From positions 1-35,394 of the IMG/VR virus record IMGVR_UViG_3300005253_000546: a stretch of 35,394 nucleotides of DNA. One strand, written 5' to 3'. This DNA comes from a virus. The translations under genes were made by a program, and so were the position numbers. How positions within the stretch are numbered: position 1 is the first letter of the stretch; every line of letters begins with the position of its first letter. Positions 2,641 through 25,121 of this stretch are shown here, in pieces. The notes under the pieces are model-generated. The model worked only from the letters and a program-made list of their open reading frames with translations, was not told where the DNA came from and did no database searches.

Positions 2641-2675
2641 GTAGGCATGGTGCAAGTCGCTTCAGGAGAATGGTT

Positions 2676-3140
2676 GTGAGAAGCAAATACGACTGGCGGT
2701 TCAACGGGTTCACAGTGACGCCCGATGCGAAGGGATACCCGCGAATCTATGTCGGAGGGCACATGATAGCCGTTCACCGTTTCGTTTGGGAGCAGGCGCA
2801 CGGAGCACTGCCCCGTGGATTCGTAGTCCACCACCAGGACGGCGATGTGGCTAACTATGCGCTGGACAACCTCATGCTTCTGAAGCAATCCGATCATATG
2901 CGCATCCATTTGGGGTGGATACGAGAGAACGGCCTTTGGGTCGCCAAGCCATGTAGTCGCTGTGGGCAGGTTCTGCCGCTTGAGCGGTTTTACGTGAGGA
3001 GAGGGGTGCCTACCGGCTTCTGTAAGGCTTGCCACGGTCAGGATACCGTCGCTCACCGTAAACGGCAGGACCCGAAAGCCCGCGAGGCTATTTACCAACG
3101 CTACCGCAAGCGCCGGAAACTCGGCATCGTAGGTACATAG
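2676..3140 (+). CDS. HNH endonuclease (HNH_3-like) with zinc ribbon
   Basis: The HNH core runs from about residue 34 (HRFVWEQAHG) through FVVHHQDGD (H52, H53) to LDNLMLLKQSDH. After it come CSRCG (C93, C96) and CKACH (C116, C119), which form a second zinc-binding unit, then a basic tail (RYRKRRK). Free-standing phage HNH proteins of this type are usually homing endonucleases or nicking enzymes. AGGAG at 2664-2668 is only one base from the ATG at 2670 but seven bases from the in-frame GTG at 2676, so I prefer the GTG. The gene has its own promoter and so may be a self-expressed mobile cassette. Confidence 0.8.
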   Translation: MRSKYDWRFNGFTVTPDAKGYPRIYVGGHMIAVHRFVWEQAHGALPRGFVVHHQDGDVANYALDNLMLLKQSDHMRIHLGWIRENGLWVAKPCSRCGQVLPLERFYVRRGVPTGFCKACHGQDTVAHRKRQDPKAREAIYQRYRKRRKLGIVGT

Positions 3141-3805: not shown

Positions 3806-4434
3806 GTAAACCAATTATCCTTGACCTTTGCGGCGGCACTGGGGCTTGGTCACAGCCATACCGGGATGCCGGATACGACGTGCGCTTGGTGACGTTGCCT
3901 GATGATGTGAGATACTACAAGCCCCCGCGTCGAGTCCACGGTGTCTTGGCGGCTCCGCCCTGTACTGACTTCGCTTCGAGCGGCACTCGCTGGTGGAAGG
4001 CGAAAGACAAAGAGAAGGGCTTGCTGGAGGGCCTGTCTATCGTCGCTGCATGCCTGCGTGTTATCGAGGATACTAAACCGAAGTGGTGGGCGCTTGAAAA
4101 CCCCGTGGGCAGGTTGCCGAGATACATCGGGAAATGGCGCTATACATTCCAGCCTTTCGACTACGGCGACCCTTGGACAAAGAGGACGTGCATTTGGGGG
4201 GAACATACCATACCTACCAAGACCCCAGTTGCGCCAGTTGGGACATGGCAAGGCAGTCACGCTGCGGGCAAGCCGCTGGGCATAGTAGACCACCCGCTGT
4301 TGCTCCTCGAGGAAGGGGCCGTGTTTCTTCCGCCCGATTGGATTCACAAACTGGGGCCGTCTGCCGACCGGGCCGAGAAACGCAGCATCACGTCGCCGGG
4401 ATTCGCCCGGGCGTTCTTCGAGGCCAACCCGTAA
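3802..4434 (+). CDS. C5-cytosine methyltransferase-like protein
   Basis: The 210-aa product has a SAM-binding motif I (LDLCGGTGAWS, residues 7-17), a motif IV with the catalytic proline-cysteine (APPCTDFASSG, Cys54), a motif VI-like ALENPVG (ENP rather than the usual ENV, residues 99-101), and a KRTCIWG segment at 127-133 where motif VIII is expected. It is about half to two-thirds the length of a full restriction-type C5 methyltransferase, so the target-recognition domain is reduced or absent. Small proteins of this kind are common in phages. They probably modify cytosine in phage DNA against restriction, although a non-DNA substrate cannot be excluded. Start chosen at the ATGA overlap; an upstream ATG at 3766 lies inside the previous gene. 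Confidence 0.75.
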   Translation: MSKPIILDLCGGTGAWSQPYRDAGYDVRLVTLPDDVRYYKPPRRVHGVLAAPPCTDFASSGTRWWKAKDKEKGLLEGLSIVAACLRVIEDTKPKWWALENPVGRLPRYIGKWRYTFQPFDYGDPWTKRTCIWGEHTIPTKTPVAPVGTWQGSHAAGKPLGIVDHPLLLLEEGAVFLPPDWIHKLGPSADRAEKRSITSPGFARAFFEANP

Positions 4435-4508
4435 CCCCACCCTCCGTGCGCTGGCCAGCCGAGCCACAAAGGGAAGCGGCGCAGGTCTATCAAAGGTGCA
4501 TTGTCCAC

Positions 4509-4538
4509 TTTACCTGTTATAGTGCAGTGTGCTACACT
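4509..4538 (+). promoter_or_regulatory. Possible extended -10 promoter before second HNH gene
   Basis: TTTACC (4509-4514), 18-base spacer, TGC-TACACT with the -10 at 4533-4538 and an extended TGn. Both boxes match consensus in 4 of 6 positions. The predicted start would lie close to the GTG at 4545, which would make the message nearly leaderless. Weaker than the promoters at 2612, 6281, 8341 and 8484. Confidence 0.3.
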
Positions 4539-4544
4539 TGTGTT

Positions 4545-4979
4545 GTGAGCAAGCACGTCAAGGGGGATTATTACTACACTCGCATCTGCGAGAGATGCGG
4601 ATGCAGCCATGAGTTTCGTCGTTCCTACAAGATCACTAGCCCATCACATGTGCGCCGGTTTTGCCGTCCGTGTCTCCTGGAGATGAAGATTGAGCGAGCG
4701 AGTCGCAACAAAGGGGAGCGATATGTTAACAGCCAGGGTTATGTTCGTGTGCGGGACTACGGCGCATATGTAGAGGAACACCGCCAGGTAATGGCCAAGA
4801 TGCTTGGCCGGCCGCTTCGCGCAGGGGAGTCCGTACATCACAAAAATGGGGTCAAACATGATAACCGGCCGGAGAATCTGGAACTGTGGGTCGGGAAGAC
4901 GCACCACGTTGGGCAGCGAGCCAAAGATATAGCCTGCCCTCATTGCGGCAGGCTATATCTCGCGGGTGACTTGGCGTAG
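4545..4979 (+). CDS. HNH endonuclease with N-terminal zinc site
   Basis: Starting at GTG 4545 (no ATG is available before codon 47) the product is 144 aa. C15-x2-C18 and C40-x2-C43 form an N-terminal zinc site. The HNH core covers EEHRQVMAKMLGRPL, SVHHKNGVKHDNRPENLELW (H98, H99, N111) and KTHHVGQRAKDI. A final CPHCG (C131, C134) lies in the last 15 residues. The HNH layout matches HNH_3 homing-type endonucleases. The DNA for the last residues forms a perfect hairpin (4926-4959). It stands 110 bases after the methyltransferase-like gene, which suggests insertion as a separate cassette. No clear ribosome site is visible, so the start is uncertain. Confidence 0.7.
   Translation: MSKHVKGDYYYTRICERCGCSHEFRRSYKITSPSHVRRFCRPCLLEMKIERASRNKGERYVNSQGYVRVRDYGAYVEEHRQVMAKMLGRPLRAGESVHHKNGVKHDNRPENLELWVGKTHHVGQRAKDIACPHCGRLYLAGDLA
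4926..4959. terminator. Perfect 13-bp hairpin between convergent units
   Basis: GATATAGCCTGCC (4926-4938) and its exact reverse complement (4947-4959) are separated by 8 bases. It lies within the last codons of the HNH gene and 20-50 bases before the converging leftward gene ends at 5008. There is no long T-run on either side, so a bidirectional terminator is an inference from position and symmetry. Confidence 0.45.
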
Positions 4980-9493: not shown

Positions 9494-9694
9494 ATGGCGG
9501 TACCTGGAACAGCAATCAGTCAAGATACCTGCGCCCACTGCTTCTGTAGCCTCAACACGGGCGGTCAATCTGTCTGTTGCAAGTGTGGTTACTGTCCTTC
9601 AGTGACAGTGGTGTGGTTGGGCTCGACTACCTGGACCCCTGGCGTCCCCTACAGCTGGGACCAGACAGCCGGCGATTGGAGGCCCCATCCATGA
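9494..9694 (+). CDS. Zinc-ribbon-like 66-aa protein
   Basis: The product contains DTCAHCFCSL and SVCCKCGYCPS, a dense Cys cluster able to form a zinc ribbon, followed by a Trp-rich tail (VVWLGSTTWTP, YSWDQTAGDW). Its stop overlaps the next ATG (ATGA), which supports it over two other open frames in the same stretch. The ribosome site is weak (AGGAAC some 13 bases upstream). It is the first gene of the rightward packaging operon. Function unknown. Confidence 0.5.
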   Translation: MAVPGTAISQDTCAHCFCSLNTGGQSVCCKCGYCPSVTVVWLGSTTWTPGVPYSWDQTAGDWRPHP

Positions 9695-10314
9695 CTGAGA
9701 CTCCAAATCCTCCAAAGATTCCAAAGTCTCCAAATCCTCCAAAGTTACTCCTGCCAGGACGTCGGCCGGGGCAGGCGACGACTGGACGCCGCGGCATCCT
9801 CAACGACGACATGATTGAGGCCCTGGCGGTTCAGATGCGGAAGGGGCTCTACGCCATCCATGCCTGTGCCATCGTGGGCGTCAGTGAGGATAGCTACTGG
9901 AACTGGATGAAGCGTGGCGGAGACGCGGACGAGACTGACTTGGTGTTCCTCAGGTTCGCCGAGGCGATGAAAAAAGCCCAGGCTGACTCCATCGAGGAAC
10001 GTCTGTCCCGGATCGACGCCGCCGGCGAGGGTGGCGCCGTCACGTCACGCACGACCAAGACCACCACGCACAAGAACGGCAACGTCGTCGTCGAAGAGAC
10101 GGAGAAGCTATCGGGACCGGCCTGGCAGGCCGACGCCTGGAGCACGGAGAGGCGTAACCGCGAGCTGTACGGCCAGCCCCGCAGTGTTGCAGAGGTCGCC
10201 GCCGGCGTGGCCATGCTGCTGTTTGCCCGGGTGGAGTTCGTCGACTGCCAAGATGGCGTTGCGCTTGACGAGATGAAGGTCGCGGAGATCGGCCAGGGGG
10301 ACGGGAAGACATGA
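9691..10314 (+). CDS. Terminase small subunit-like protein
   Basis: The 207-aa product has a low-complexity Pro-rich N-terminus with a repeated NPPK pattern (residues 6-18), then an HTH-type segment (DDMIEALAVQMRKGLY, AIHACAIVGVSEDSYWNW) and a helix FLRFAEAMKKAQADSIEERL. It then has a beta-hairpin rich in Thr/Lys (TTKTTTHKNGNVVVEETEK) and AWQADAWSTERRNRELYG, which matches the W-xxER-xxxxxG signature of phage small terminases. Small terminase recognises the packaging site and hands DNA to the large subunit. The start at 9691 has TTGGAGG at proper spacing; an upstream in-frame TTG at 9577 lies in the preceding gene. It stands 2.3 kb ahead of the large subunit. Confidence 0.65.
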   Translation: MTETPNPPKIPKSPNPPKLLLPGRRPGQATTGRRGILNDDMIEALAVQMRKGLYAIHACAIVGVSEDSYWNWMKRGGDADETDLVFLRFAEAMKKAQADSIEERLSRIDAAGEGGAVTSRTTKTTTHKNGNVVVEETEKLSGPAWQADAWSTERRNRELYGQPRSVAEVAAGVAMLLFARVEFVDCQDGVALDEMKVAEIGQGDGKT

Positions 10315-12493: not shown

Positions 12494-12658
12494 ATGAAGA
12501 GACTCTGGGCATTCATTCTACGGCACGTTTACGTCCGCGGGGCGCTCAAGGTCACCGGTATCGGGGGCGGCTCGGTTGATTATGACGATACCGAGGTCCC
12601 CGAGGAGCGCCGCTTCGAGATACTGAAGATCGGTGGAAGTTTCGGTATTCGATGGTAG
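12494..12658 (+). CDS. Hypothetical 54-aa protein
   Basis: TAGGAGGAAGT precedes the ATG at 12494, and the stop overlaps the terminase start. The product starts MKRLWAFILRHVYVRG, a short basic-hydrophobic segment, then a Gly-rich turn (GIGGGSVDYDD) and a charged end. This layout resembles small connector or assembly proteins, but no family is recognised. Confidence 0.55.
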   Translation: MKRLWAFILRHVYVRGALKVTGIGGGSVDYDDTEVPEERRFEILKIGGSFGIRW

Positions 12659-15030
12659 CTGGGGCCAAACCGGCTTTCAGGCCGTTCATGGAGGAGATCC
12701 CCGCCACCAAGACCATTAAGGTGAGCCTGAGCCCTCCACAACAGAGGGCATTGTTCAGTCTCAAGCGGTTCGTCCTGATGATTGGCGGCACACAGGGGGG
12801 CAAGGCACTCCCGCTCGACACCCCCATCGCTTGCCCTGACGGTTTCACCACAATGGGCGCGCTCCAGCCGGGCGACGTTGTCTACGATGAGCATGGGCGT
12901 GAGTGCCGCGTCGAATTGGTGACGCCGACCATGTACGGTCACGACTGCTACCGGGTTGAGTTTGATGACGGCGTTTCGATTGTTGCTGATGCTGAACACC
13001 TCTGGCGTGTCCAGACGGCCAGGCAGCGAAAGAATCAGGCGCGGCGTTCTGCGGCGGAGGGAGATGACTACTCCATACTGACGACGGCGCAGATGCAGGG
13101 TGACCTTATCCTGCACGCCCGGCGGGAGTGGCGCTCTAACTATTCCATCGATATGCCAGCGCCGACTCAATTCCCTGAGCGCAATCTCCCAATTCCTCCG
13201 TACAGCTTTGGTGTATGGCAAGGTGACGGCGGATCCACGTCTTCGGAGTTCTATTCCGCTGACCCCGAAGTCGCCGGGATGGTTGCCGCCGAGGGGGTCT
13301 TGGTCGGTGCCGGAAAAGCTGTAGTCCAACAGGGTAAGGCACTCACGTACAGCATTGGTCAGGTGGGCAAGACCCGCGACCCCCTAACCGGCGTCTACAC
13401 CGCCAACGACAGCATATCATCGAAACTGAAGGCTCTCGGCGTCTGGGGCGACAAGCATATCCCTGATGTCTACCTGACTGCCTCTGTAGAACAGCGCATG
13501 GCGCTGCTTCGCGGTCTGATGGATACCGATGGCTACTGCGCCGATGATGGCGGCTGCGAGATCAGTACGGTAAAGCCTGTCCTGGCGAGAGACATCTTGA
13601 CTCTGCTCAGGTCTCTCGGCATCAAGGCGCGGTGTCGAAAGAAAGAGACGAAGTGCGGTACGGTGCTGGGCACTGCCTGGCGCATCACGTTCACGAGCGA
13701 TGTCCCCGTCTTTGGGCTCGCACGCAAGCAGCGGCAGCATGCAACCGTTCGCCCCGAGGTGAAGCGGCGCTATATCCGGTCAATCACTCCCGTTATGTCC
13801 GTCCCGGTCAAATGTATCCAAGTCGATAGTCCCAATCAGATGTATCTGGCCGGCAGGGACTTTCTGCCGACTCACAACACCTGTTTCGGCCCCTTCTGGC
13901 TGCTCCGCGAGATTCAGCGTTGCGGGCCGGGCGACTACCTGGCCGTCTCGGCGACCTATCCGCTGATGAACGTCAATATGCTTGGCGCCTTTCTGCAGTT
14001 GTTTGAGGCCCAGTTCCATCTGGGCACGTTCCGGCGCTCCGAGATGACGTTCCACTTCCACGATGGGAAGACCAGAGTGTTCTTTGCCTCTGCGGCCAAC
14101 CCGGAATCCATCGAATCCGCGACCGCGCTGGCGGCTTGGATTGACGAGGGCGGGCAGGACCAGTTCCCCCGGCAGACGTGGGAGGCCATCATTCGCCGGC
14201 TGTCCATCAGCCAGGGCCGGGTGCTGATGACCACCACGCCGTACAATCTCGGCTGGGTCAAACAGGAACTCTACGACCGCTGGGAGAATGGCGACCCCGA
14301 CTACGATGTCATTCAGTTCGACAGCATCGACAACCCCTCATTCCCCAAAGATGAGTACGAGCGCGCCCGCCGCACCATGCCGCCGTGGAAGTTCGAGATG
14401 TTCTACCGCGGCCGCTTCACCCGCCCGGCCGGTCTCATCTACGATTTGTTCGATGACCACATCTGCGTCATTCCTCGGTTTGAGATCGACCGCTCCTGGC
14501 CGCGATATGTAGGCCACGACTTCGGCCCGATCAACATGGCGGCCATCTGGCTTGCGGAGAATCCCGCTACCGGCATGTTCTTCGCTTACCGCGAGTACCA
14601 CAAGGCCGGTGAGGCGGCTGAAGGTCATGTGCAGGCCTGGGCGGAGGACAGCAAGGGCGAGGTCGTCATGCGGCGGGTCGGCGGTTCGCCATCCGAGGAC
14701 GACTGGCGGCGGAACTTCGCCCAGGCCGGCTGGCCGATTGCCAAACCAATCAATCGCGATGTCGAGATGGGCATTGACCGCGTTTACGCCCTGACGAGAG
14801 ACAACAAGCTCTTCATCTTCGACGATATGGTCGGAATCTTGCACGAAATCATGACCTACAGCCGCAAGTTGGACGACCAGTTTCAGCCGACCAAGGTGAT
14901 TGACGACAAGCAGAAGTTTCACCGGCTGGACGCGCTGCGCTACATCGTGAGCGACTTCCCGACTGAGCGCCGGGACGCGCGGGCTGGCCAGCGCAACGTC
15001 GTAAAGGTGATTGGACCCGGGGGACCGTGA
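12652..15030 (+). CDS. Terminase large subunit precursor with intein
   Basis: The 792-aa precursor would give a 434-aa terminase after removal of a 358-aa intein (residues 52-409). The ATPase has Walker A GGTQGGK-T split at the Lys-Thr bond, Walker B ending in AAWIDEGGQ (D498, E499) and the coupling motif LMTTTPYN (527-530). The RNase H-like nuclease has YVGHDFGP (D623), LFIFDDMV and FHRLDALRYIV (D760). Terminase pumps DNA into the prohead and cuts the concatemer. The intein must splice for the P-loop to be formed. The gene overlaps both neighbours by a few bases and sits directly before the connector/portal genes. Confidence 0.92.
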   Translation: MVAGAKPAFRPFMEEIPATKTIKVSLSPPQQRALFSLKRFVLMIGGTQGGKALPLDTPIACPDGFTTMGALQPGDVVYDEHGRECRVELVTPTMYGHDCYRVEFDDGVSIVADAEHLWRVQTARQRKNQARRSAAEGDDYSILTTAQMQGDLILHARREWRSNYSIDMPAPTQFPERNLPIPPYSFGVWQGDGGSTSSEFYSADPEVAGMVAAEGVLVGAGKAVVQQGKALTYSIGQVGKTRDPLTGVYTANDSISSKLKALGVWGDKHIPDVYLTASVEQRMALLRGLMDTDGYCADDGGCEISTVKPVLARDILTLLRSLGIKARCRKKETKCGTVLGTAWRITFTSDVPVFGLARKQRQHATVRPEVKRRYIRSITPVMSVPVKCIQVDSPNQMYLAGRDFLPTHNTCFGPFWLLREIQRCGPGDYLAVSATYPLMNVNMLGAFLQLFEAQFHLGTFRRSEMTFHFHDGKTRVFFASAANPESIESATALAAWIDEGGQDQFPRQTWEAIIRRLSISQGRVLMTTTPYNLGWVKQELYDRWENGDPDYDVIQFDSIDNPSFPKDEYERARRTMPPWKFEMFYRGRFTRPAGLIYDLFDDHICVIPRFEIDRSWPRYVGHDFGPINMAAIWLAENPATGMFFAYREYHKAGEAAEGHVQAWAEDSKGEVVMRRVGGSPSEDDWRRNFAQAGWPIAKPINRDVEMGIDRVYALTRDNKLFIFDDMVGILHEIMTYSRKLDDQFQPTKVIDDKQKFHRLDALRYIVSDFPTERRDARAGQRNVVKVIGPGGP
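12805..13878 (+). mobile_element. Class 3-type intein with LAGLIDADG endonuclease
   Basis: 358 residues from Ala1 to His357-Asn358, followed by Thr+1 of the terminase. Instead of a Cys/Ser nucleophile it starts with Ala. Trp67 follows His65 by two (B10 His, B12 Trp), Cys337 occupies block F4 where class 1 inteins have Asp, and the +1 residue is Thr. This W-C-T set is the class 3 signature. Blocks C and E of the homing endonuclease are FGVWQGDGG (135-143) and LLRGLMDTDGY (234-244), both with acidic residues intact, so cleavage activity looks preserved. It interrupts the codons for the P-loop Lys-Thr. Confidence 0.9.
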
Positions 15031-24125: not shown

Positions 24126-25121
24126 ATGAAGACTCTTGCAGACTACGCAGAACTCGACGTCAATACGATGGAAAAGGGGGTAATGAACTGGCTTTTCAAG
24201 TTCGACCCCCTGCTCCAGCGATTGGGGTTCCGCCCAGTCAAAGGCAACGCACTGGCCTACAACGTCAAGACCGAGCGGGCCGGCGCCACCTGGATTGTGC
24301 CGACTGACGACGTCCCTGAGAAGGAGTTTGACTCCGATCAGCGGACAGTCGCCCTGAAGGAACTCATCAACGACGTCAAAGTTCCCCACTTCAACATCGA
24401 CACCAACTCCACGCAGGATGTTGAAGCCCTCGAGGTTGTGGAAGGTATCCGCGACCTGCGCTCCGGTTTCGTCGAGACCTTCCTCTTTGGCGGCACGACC
24501 ACCACGGTCAGTACGAAAGAACCGGATGGTATCCTGAAGCTCATCGCCGAGCTGGAAACTACGGGCACGACCGACCTGGATGGTATCGTGAACACGCAGG
24601 TTATTGCTAACGCGATAGCCTCCGGTGCCCTGACTCAGGCGAAAATCGAGGAACTGATTGACGCCACCCGCCCGGAACTCGACGAGATCACCATCCTGAT
24701 GACCGACCGCCGAGCCCGGCGCAAGATCAACGCTCTGGCACGCGCCAGCGGCAGCCCGCTGCGCGTCACGCAGAACGAGTTTGGGCAGTTCATCTCCATC
24801 TTCAACGAAATCCCGCTGGTAGTCAGCGACTACATGAGGGACAACTTCCAAGACAACGATGGCTCCTCGGTGCTGGACATCGCGGCCTACGTGAAGAACA
24901 AGACACGGGCCAGCGGATTCGACAACAGCATCATCCTGGCCCTCAAGATGGGCGACGAGCAGCTCACCGGCATCCAGAGCGGCACCCTCAGCGCCAAGAA
25001 GATCAGCGAGGATGCCCCCGATAAGGACGCCGTCCACTACCGGATGAAGTGGTACGCCGCGCAGGCACTCTTCAACAAGTTCGCCGCCGCCGTCCTGACG
25101 GGTATCAACGCCGACACTTAG
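24126..25121 (+). CDS. Major capsid protein, HK97-fold
   Basis: 331 aa, within the usual size of HK97-fold capsid subunits without a delta domain. Recognisable elements are an N-terminal arm (MKTLADYAELDVNTMEKGV), a beta segment around VPTDDVPEKEFDSDQ (E-loop region), a spine-helix-like KELINDVKVPH, a P-domain segment around VVEGIRDLRSGFVETFLFGG, and a late VHYRMKWYAAQALFNKFAAA that resembles the conserved capsid C-terminal helix. AGGAGGA precedes the ATG. It is placed between scaffold and decoration-like genes. Confidence 0.8.
   Translation: MKTLADYAELDVNTMEKGVMNWLFKFDPLLQRLGFRPVKGNALAYNVKTERAGATWIVPTDDVPEKEFDSDQRTVALKELINDVKVPHFNIDTNSTQDVEALEVVEGIRDLRSGFVETFLFGGTTTTVSTKEPDGILKLIAELETTGTTDLDGIVNTQVIANAIASGALTQAKIEELIDATRPELDEITILMTDRRARRKINALARASGSPLRVTQNEFGQFISIFNEIPLVVSDYMRDNFQDNDGSSVLDIAAYVKNKTRASGFDNSIILALKMGDEQLTGIQSGTLSAKKISEDAPDKDAVHYRMKWYAAQALFNKFAAAVLTGINADT

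Follow-up and report, generated by a model that had tools for sequence, protein, structure and literature searches.

We found that the gene for the large terminase subunit (TerL) of a phage is interrupted by what is very probably (probability of about 0.93) a full-length, mobile class 3 intein, which is predicted to splice, to restore a TerL protein of 434 amino acids and to spread by homing. The reading draws on the anatomy and homology of the insert, an exact empty site in a related phage, a patchy distribution and the predicted fold, all documented here for the window, that is, the whole stretch of 35,394 bases that makes up one viral record. The two terminase genes, the intein with its parts and the capsid gene are on the plus strand.

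An Intein in the P-loop of the Large Terminase

The TerL precursor is encoded by a single open frame at positions 12652 to 15030 and was translated into 792 amino acids. The N-extein of 51 amino acids (12652 to 12804) ends in the Walker A sequence GGTQGGK and is followed by an insert of 358 amino acids (12805 to 13878), delimited by translation, alignments and structure matches, which runs from Ala1 to Asn358, starts with ALPLDTPIAC, ends with FLPTHN, and corresponds to precursor residues 52 to 409. Residue 410 is a Thr (Thr+1, 13879 to 13881), which completes the Walker A motif at the start of the C-extein, a segment of 383 amino acids (13879 to 15027) that opens with T(+1)CFGPFW and contains the Walker B motif AAWIDE and the C-terminal nuclease region. 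The C-extein matched the terminase profile phrog_2 (E = 2.5e-26), and the TerL ORF matched Terminase_6N with an E-value of 1.8e-4, slightly below the Pfam cut-off. When the insert was taken out, the 51 and 383 residues joined to a protein of 434 amino acids in which the Walker A motif was restored as GGTQGGKT. With Walker A, Walker B and terminase homology all present, the ORF at 12652 to 15030 minus the insert is a phage large terminase.

A search with the C-extein identified the IMG/VR contig L020, which encodes a TerL protein with 73% identity to the C-extein and an uninterrupted P-loop that contains GGHQSGKT and reads GGHQSGKTCLGPYW. Because this homolog is uninterrupted, both splice junctions could be placed exactly to the residue, and the insert is located between the Lys and the Thr of the Walker A motif. 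A preliminary description of the window had proposed this location, an insert of 358 residues with Ala first, and a ligated product of 434 amino acids, all of which agree with the translation and, for the location, with the intein-free homolog.

The gene for a probable small terminase subunit (9577 to 10314; phrog_4102, E = 3.4e-16) was located upstream of the TerL gene and the gene for the major capsid protein (24126 to 25121; phrog_212, E = 7.7e-30; Pfam Phage_capsid above the cut-off) downstream of it, and the virus is therefore considered to be a tailed phage. No cellular relatives of the terminase were found in a genome scan with the terminase as the query. It was also noted that the same phage has 2 ORFs for HNH endonucleases, at 2670 to 3140 and 4134 to 4979, the latter of which has a GC3 value of 0.585, below that of the other genes measured.

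A second contig (L001/L019) was 99.55% identical to the window over 7.1 kb, and its intein of 1074 bases was identical to that of the window. The 2 sequences differed almost solely in a patch of about 55 bases at 12583 to 12637, which forms the 3' end of an ORF for 54 amino acids just upstream of the terminase start. A tiny inversion was tested as the cause and rejected. The patch looks like a mosaic replacement, since the peptides encoded by the 2 versions are similar (RRFEILKIGGSFGIRW against KSFEVLKLGGSFGIRW).

Signature Residues of a Class 3 Intein

In a search of PDB sequences with the insert, the top matches were the class 3 DnaB1 inteins of Mycobacterium chimaera (MchDnaB1, 6rix; E = 1.7e-23) and M. 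smegmatis (DnaBi1, 6bs8), and the end of the insert was aligned to that of MchDnaB1 at SVPVKCIQVDSPNQMYLAGRDFLPTHN. The insert also matched other inteins end to end, with a best E-value of 4e-103, far beyond chance. The N-terminal splicing domain with blocks A and B (12805 to 13014) was identified from invariance among relatives and from an alignment in which residues 1 to 81 matched residues 1 to 81 of MchDnaB1 without gaps; it contains Ala1, Cys48 (12946 to 12948), Asp62, His65 (12997 to 12999) and Trp67 (13003 to 13005). The C-terminal splicing domain with blocks F and G (13771 to 13878) was aligned to residues 110 to 145 of MchDnaB1 and contains Cys337 (13813 to 13815), the predicted nucleophile, as well as Thr356 (13870 to 13872), His357 and Asn358. 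The Pfam Intein_splicing profile had no match in the record of the window, and the splicing blocks were found via the solved structures and the alignments.

The residues named in the crystal structure paper on M. smegmatis DnaBi1 are Ala1, Asp62, His65, Trp67, Cys118, Thr137, His138 and Asn139 (PMC6195587). The W-C-T triplet consists of Trp B:12, Cys F:4 and Thr G:5; as a further feature, separate from the triplet, class 3 inteins have Ser or Thr at position +1 (PMC5222942; PMC5050341). In the window intein, position 1 is occupied by Ala and thus has no Cys or Ser nucleophile, Trp B:12 is Trp67, which aligned with Trp67 of DnaBi1 and MchDnaB1, Cys F:4 is Cys337, Thr G:5 is Thr356, and the intein ends in the penultimate His and terminal Asn followed by Thr+1 (THN|T; Thr+1 is G:8). 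Among the window intein and 80 cellular relatives, Asp62, His65, Trp67 and Cys337 were invariant over the 81 aligned rows, and Thr356-His357-Asn358 was present in 80 of them, the single exception being a row that was cut short. Across 22 inteins of phages and viruses, drawn from several host proteins, the residues His65, Cys337, Thr356 and Asn358 were invariant and Trp67 was present in 21, while position 1 varied.

Because all of the defining sequence features are present and the insert is homologous to 2 crystallized class 3 inteins, the segment at 12805 to 13878 is assigned to class 3 on the strength of its sequence. The preliminary description had placed His65, Trp67, Cys337, the terminal His-Asn and Thr+1 at the positions confirmed by the translation. 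Its class 3 call from the W-C-T set stands with all residues present, but it had taken Thr+1 for the T of the triplet, which is Thr356 inside the insert; the mix-up is harmless for the class 3 call. It had also stated that a class 1 nucleophile as the first residue of the insert would refute the assignment; the residue there is Ala.

A class 1 intein, in which position 1 is Cys or Ser and F:4 is Asp, was considered as a candidate and rejected, given Ala1 and Cys337, in comparison with the class 1 inteins of the related terminases L168 and L202. The probability that the insert belongs to class 1 or class 2 and merely looks like class 3 is close to zero. The occurrence of class 1 inteins at the same site in L168 and L202 indicates that the class is not determined by the insertion site, which leaves some room for such a reading. 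However, Ala is found at position 1, Cys is found at F:4 where class 1 inteins have Asp, and the W-C-T triplet is complete; moreover, the closest relatives are class 3 inteins, and the same-site class 1 inteins fall far outside them (branch support 100/100).

Predicted Fold and Homing Endonuclease

An AlphaFold model of the intein, inferred with 8 sequences, had a mean pLDDT of 85 and a pTM of 0.86. In structure comparisons, the model matched PI-SceI, an intein with two domains, along its length (E = 5e-19); for the splicing domain of the model, matches to the class 3 inteins 6bs8, 6rix and 6riy had target-normalized TM scores of 0.82 to 0.86. The predicted structure thus has the HINT fold expected of a class 3 intein.

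Two Pfam profiles matched the LAGLIDADG homing endonuclease core at 13462 to 13656 with scores above their cut-offs, LAGLIDADG_3 at 33.9 bits and Hom_end at 32.4 bits. Motif 1 (PYSFGVWQGDG; 13198 to 13233, residues 132 to 142), located by alignment, contains Asp141, and motif 2 (LLRGLMDTDG; 13504 to 13533, residues 234 to 243) contains Asp240 and Asp242; the aspartates and the Pfam matches bear out the earlier statement that the motifs are intact. Together with the fold match, they support, but fall short of proving, an active endonuclease. Two residues of the window intein were unusual: Cys10 (12832 to 12834), which is Thr in all 80 relatives, and Gln139 (13219 to 13221) in motif 1, which is Leu in 98% of the rows. 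Either of these could reduce the activity of the predicted intein or endonuclease.

Distribution of Related Inteins

Relatives of the intein were identified in 759 of 50,697 public phage records, none of them with more than 60% identity. Many were located within proteins annotated merely as "terminase", at GK|T or GK|S. Matching stretches were also found in bacterial and archaeal genomes, 269 in total; among the 80 of these that were kept, most resemble actinobacterial DnaB, as judged from the flanking sequence. The preliminary description had called class 3 inteins mostly phage-borne, which holds in part, given the matches in phage records on the one hand and in cellular genomes on the other. 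Class 3 inteins in phage terminases have already been described, as have terminase inteins between the Lys and Thr of the P-loop, at the site TerL1-a (PMC5050341). With class, protein and insertion site all known before, the window intein is ordinary as an intein.

The inteins of L015 to L018 (probable Snf2-type helicase inteins) and L021 (Acidovorax phage ACF1 terminase) contain Cys1 in addition to the block F Cys, Trp B:12 and Thr G:5, and could be of mixed class 1 and class 3 character. The composition of the window intein gave no firm sign of recent import: its GC content was 59.6% versus 59.2% for the window, and its GC3 value of 69%, although lower than the 83% of the C-extein, was inside the range of the other window genes.

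Empty and Occupied Sites in the Terminase Family

An alignment-based search of IMG/VR contigs, which were the only source sampled for the family, yielded 82 distinct homologous terminases, 75 of which had a readable P-loop region. The P-loop was empty in 68 of the 75 and contained an intein in 7. Class 3 inteins at Lys|Thr were present in 4 members, namely the phage of the window (counted via its near-copy L117), L127 (the same contig as L002), L154 and L194. Class 1 inteins, with Cys1, a block F Asp and no block B Trp, were located at the identical Lys|Thr codon boundary in L168 and L202, and L137 contained a class 1 intein with Cys1 three residues upstream, between the Gln and the Ser of the loop. 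Within this terminase family, inteins predicted to belong to class 1 and to class 3 have thus converged on one and the same codon boundary of the P-loop.

The inteins of the window, L002 and L154 formed one clade (98/93) in a phylogeny of 42 inteins, and within it the window clustered with L002 (100/98); the 2 class 1 inteins were distant (100/100) and L194 was separate. In a phylogeny of 55 terminases, a quick tree in which L194 and L195 have long branches, each intein carrier was placed among intein-free terminases: the window paired with L118 (which is L020), and L127 with L123, which is 89% identical and intein-free. The intein state changed 7 times for 7 carriers on this tree, a count in which gain is indistinguishable from loss. 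These patterns indicate that inteins come and go in sister phages. Because related inteins at one site are found in scattered hosts, and because the intein and terminase trees conflict, the data point to homing, not descent alone, behind the spread of the 3 closest class 3 inteins.

Among the terminases with an unreadable P-loop, 3 (L155, L156 and L206) were examined for an intron; this candidate was rejected, as there was no Rfam match and short insertions were found instead. In L155 and L156, which come from 2 samples, 8 extra bases, TGACTGCG, separate the Gly codon of the P-loop from the Lys codon, just 5' of 788 and 2452, respectively. In L206, the same codons are separated by 5 extra bases, TGAGT, just 5' of 1136. 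Each insertion contains an in-frame TGA and shifts the frame by two. The P-loop is intact in L207, which is 92% identical to L206. The insertions may be scars left by the repair of endonuclease cuts, artefacts of assembly, or cases of recoding.

Proposed Mechanism and Alternative Explanations

The splicing chemistry, the endonuclease cutting and the dependence of packaging on splicing are extrapolated here from relatives of the intein. The intein would be translated as part of the terminase precursor, and Cys337 in block F would directly attack the Lys-Ala peptide bond, as in the established class 3 chemistry. The N-extein would then be transferred to Thr+1, and cyclization of Asn358, aided by His357, would be followed by re-formation of the extein bond, giving a terminase of 434 amino acids with an intact GGTQGGKT loop. 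Since the Walker A Lys and Thr are 358 residues apart in the precursor, it should lack ATPase and packaging activity before splicing, which we regard as a sound inference. The LAGLIDADG domain is expected to cut terminase alleles that lack the intein, at the codons of the P-loop, and recombination would spread the intein. The P-loop would be targeted because it offers a conserved DNA target within a gene that the phage cannot lose.

The intein of Gaia gp2 (TerL1-e), a related mycobacteriophage terminase intein, splices in Escherichia coli, and 2 other TerL inteins cut intein-free DNA (PMC5050341); in our search of the public phage records, the Gaia gp2 intein was about 35% identical to that of the window. 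Counting against the mechanism, at least one intein of similar kind, Arth_1007 in Arthrobacter FB24, is reported as a pseudogene (PMC3196547). A decayed intein, with inefficient splicing or a loss of DNA cutting that leaves the phage with a weakened terminase, would fit the deviation of Cys10 and Gln139 from otherwise near-invariant residues. We nevertheless consider decay improbable, as the reading frame is open, the catalytic residues are all in place together with the two endonuclease aspartates, the intein is identical in the second contig L001, and an intein left unspliced would keep the ATPase loop split in a gene that is essential.

Splicing might also be conditional, in that a Cys48-Cys337 disulfide formed under oxidative stress would hold TerL inactive and gate packaging by redox state, which would add to the main explanation. 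Cys48 corresponds in position to Cys48 of DnaBi1, whose disulfide with Cys118 reversibly halts splicing there (PMC6195587). It was present in 80 of the 81 rows formed by the window and its 80 cellular relatives, and in all of the 66 representatives at 80% identity, and the other nearby cysteines of the window, at positions 10 and 34, are not generally conserved in these relatives. However, the 80 relatives were chosen for their resemblance to an alignment whose lead sequence itself has Cys48, and the residue was found in only 14 of 22 inteins in the more diverse class 3 set. All tested substitutions of Cys48 in DnaBi1 abolished splicing (PMC6195587), and the conservation may therefore be structural. 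The authors of that study call Cys48 non-conserved (PMC6195587); C-48 is present in the DnaB intein of M. leprae (PMC8557812), and N-cleavage of MchDnaB1 is inhibited by H2O2 (PMC7664689). The conservation of Cys48 would fit a structural role as well as a redox switch of wider occurrence, and we consider redox gating of the window terminase unlikely, though less so than decay. Somewhat more doubtful still is the broader proposal that the pair of Cys48 and Cys F:4 is a redox switch across the class 3 subfamily, including phage terminases, so that packaging awaits reducing conditions, taken together with convergence of class 1 and class 3 inteins on the P-loop boundary, the part that the family survey and the trees bear out.

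The value of the window intein, read as a mobile class 3 intein, is comparative, in that the empty, class 3 and class 1 states can be seen side by side at one codon boundary. The terminase family provides a clean setting in which to ask why homing endonucleases of 2 splicing classes pick the same P-loop codons. Because Cys48 is nearly invariant in close relatives, the idea of a redox switch in mycobacterial DnaB becomes testable beyond the mycobacteria.

Comparison with Known Systems

The inteins of M. smegmatis DnaBi1 (6bs8) and M. chimaera DnaB1 (6rix and 6riy) share with the window intein the same numbering up to residue 81 (Ala1, Cys48, Asp62, His65 and Trp67), the Cys at F:4 and the THN end, and DnaBi1 is likewise inserted in a P-loop. 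Both are, however, mini-inteins of about 139 to 145 amino acids without an endonuclease and reside in a replicative helicase, whereas the window intein has 358 amino acids, a LAGLIDADG domain and a terminase as its host protein; DnaBi1 is followed by Ser+1 and the window intein by Thr+1. The TerL1-a inteins of mycobacteriophages (PMC5050341) are located at the same residue boundary, between the Lys and Thr of the P-loop, in the same kind of enzyme, but in other phages and with another sequence. The terminase inteins of Acidovorax phage ACF1, Vibrio phage 489E54-1, Escherichia phage MIZ4 and Synechococcus phage B23, whose host proteins carry no annotation beyond "terminase", share the class 3 triplet, the GK|T site and the endonuclease domain, but these inteins are 34% to 38% identical to that of the window, and their terminases have no BLAST-level similarity to the window terminase. 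A further counterpart is L002/L127 (and L003 to L005), which belongs to the same terminase family (49% identity) and has at the same site a class 3 intein with 45% identity, the L002 intein being the sister of the window intein in the intein tree, although its own nearest terminase, L123, contains no intein.
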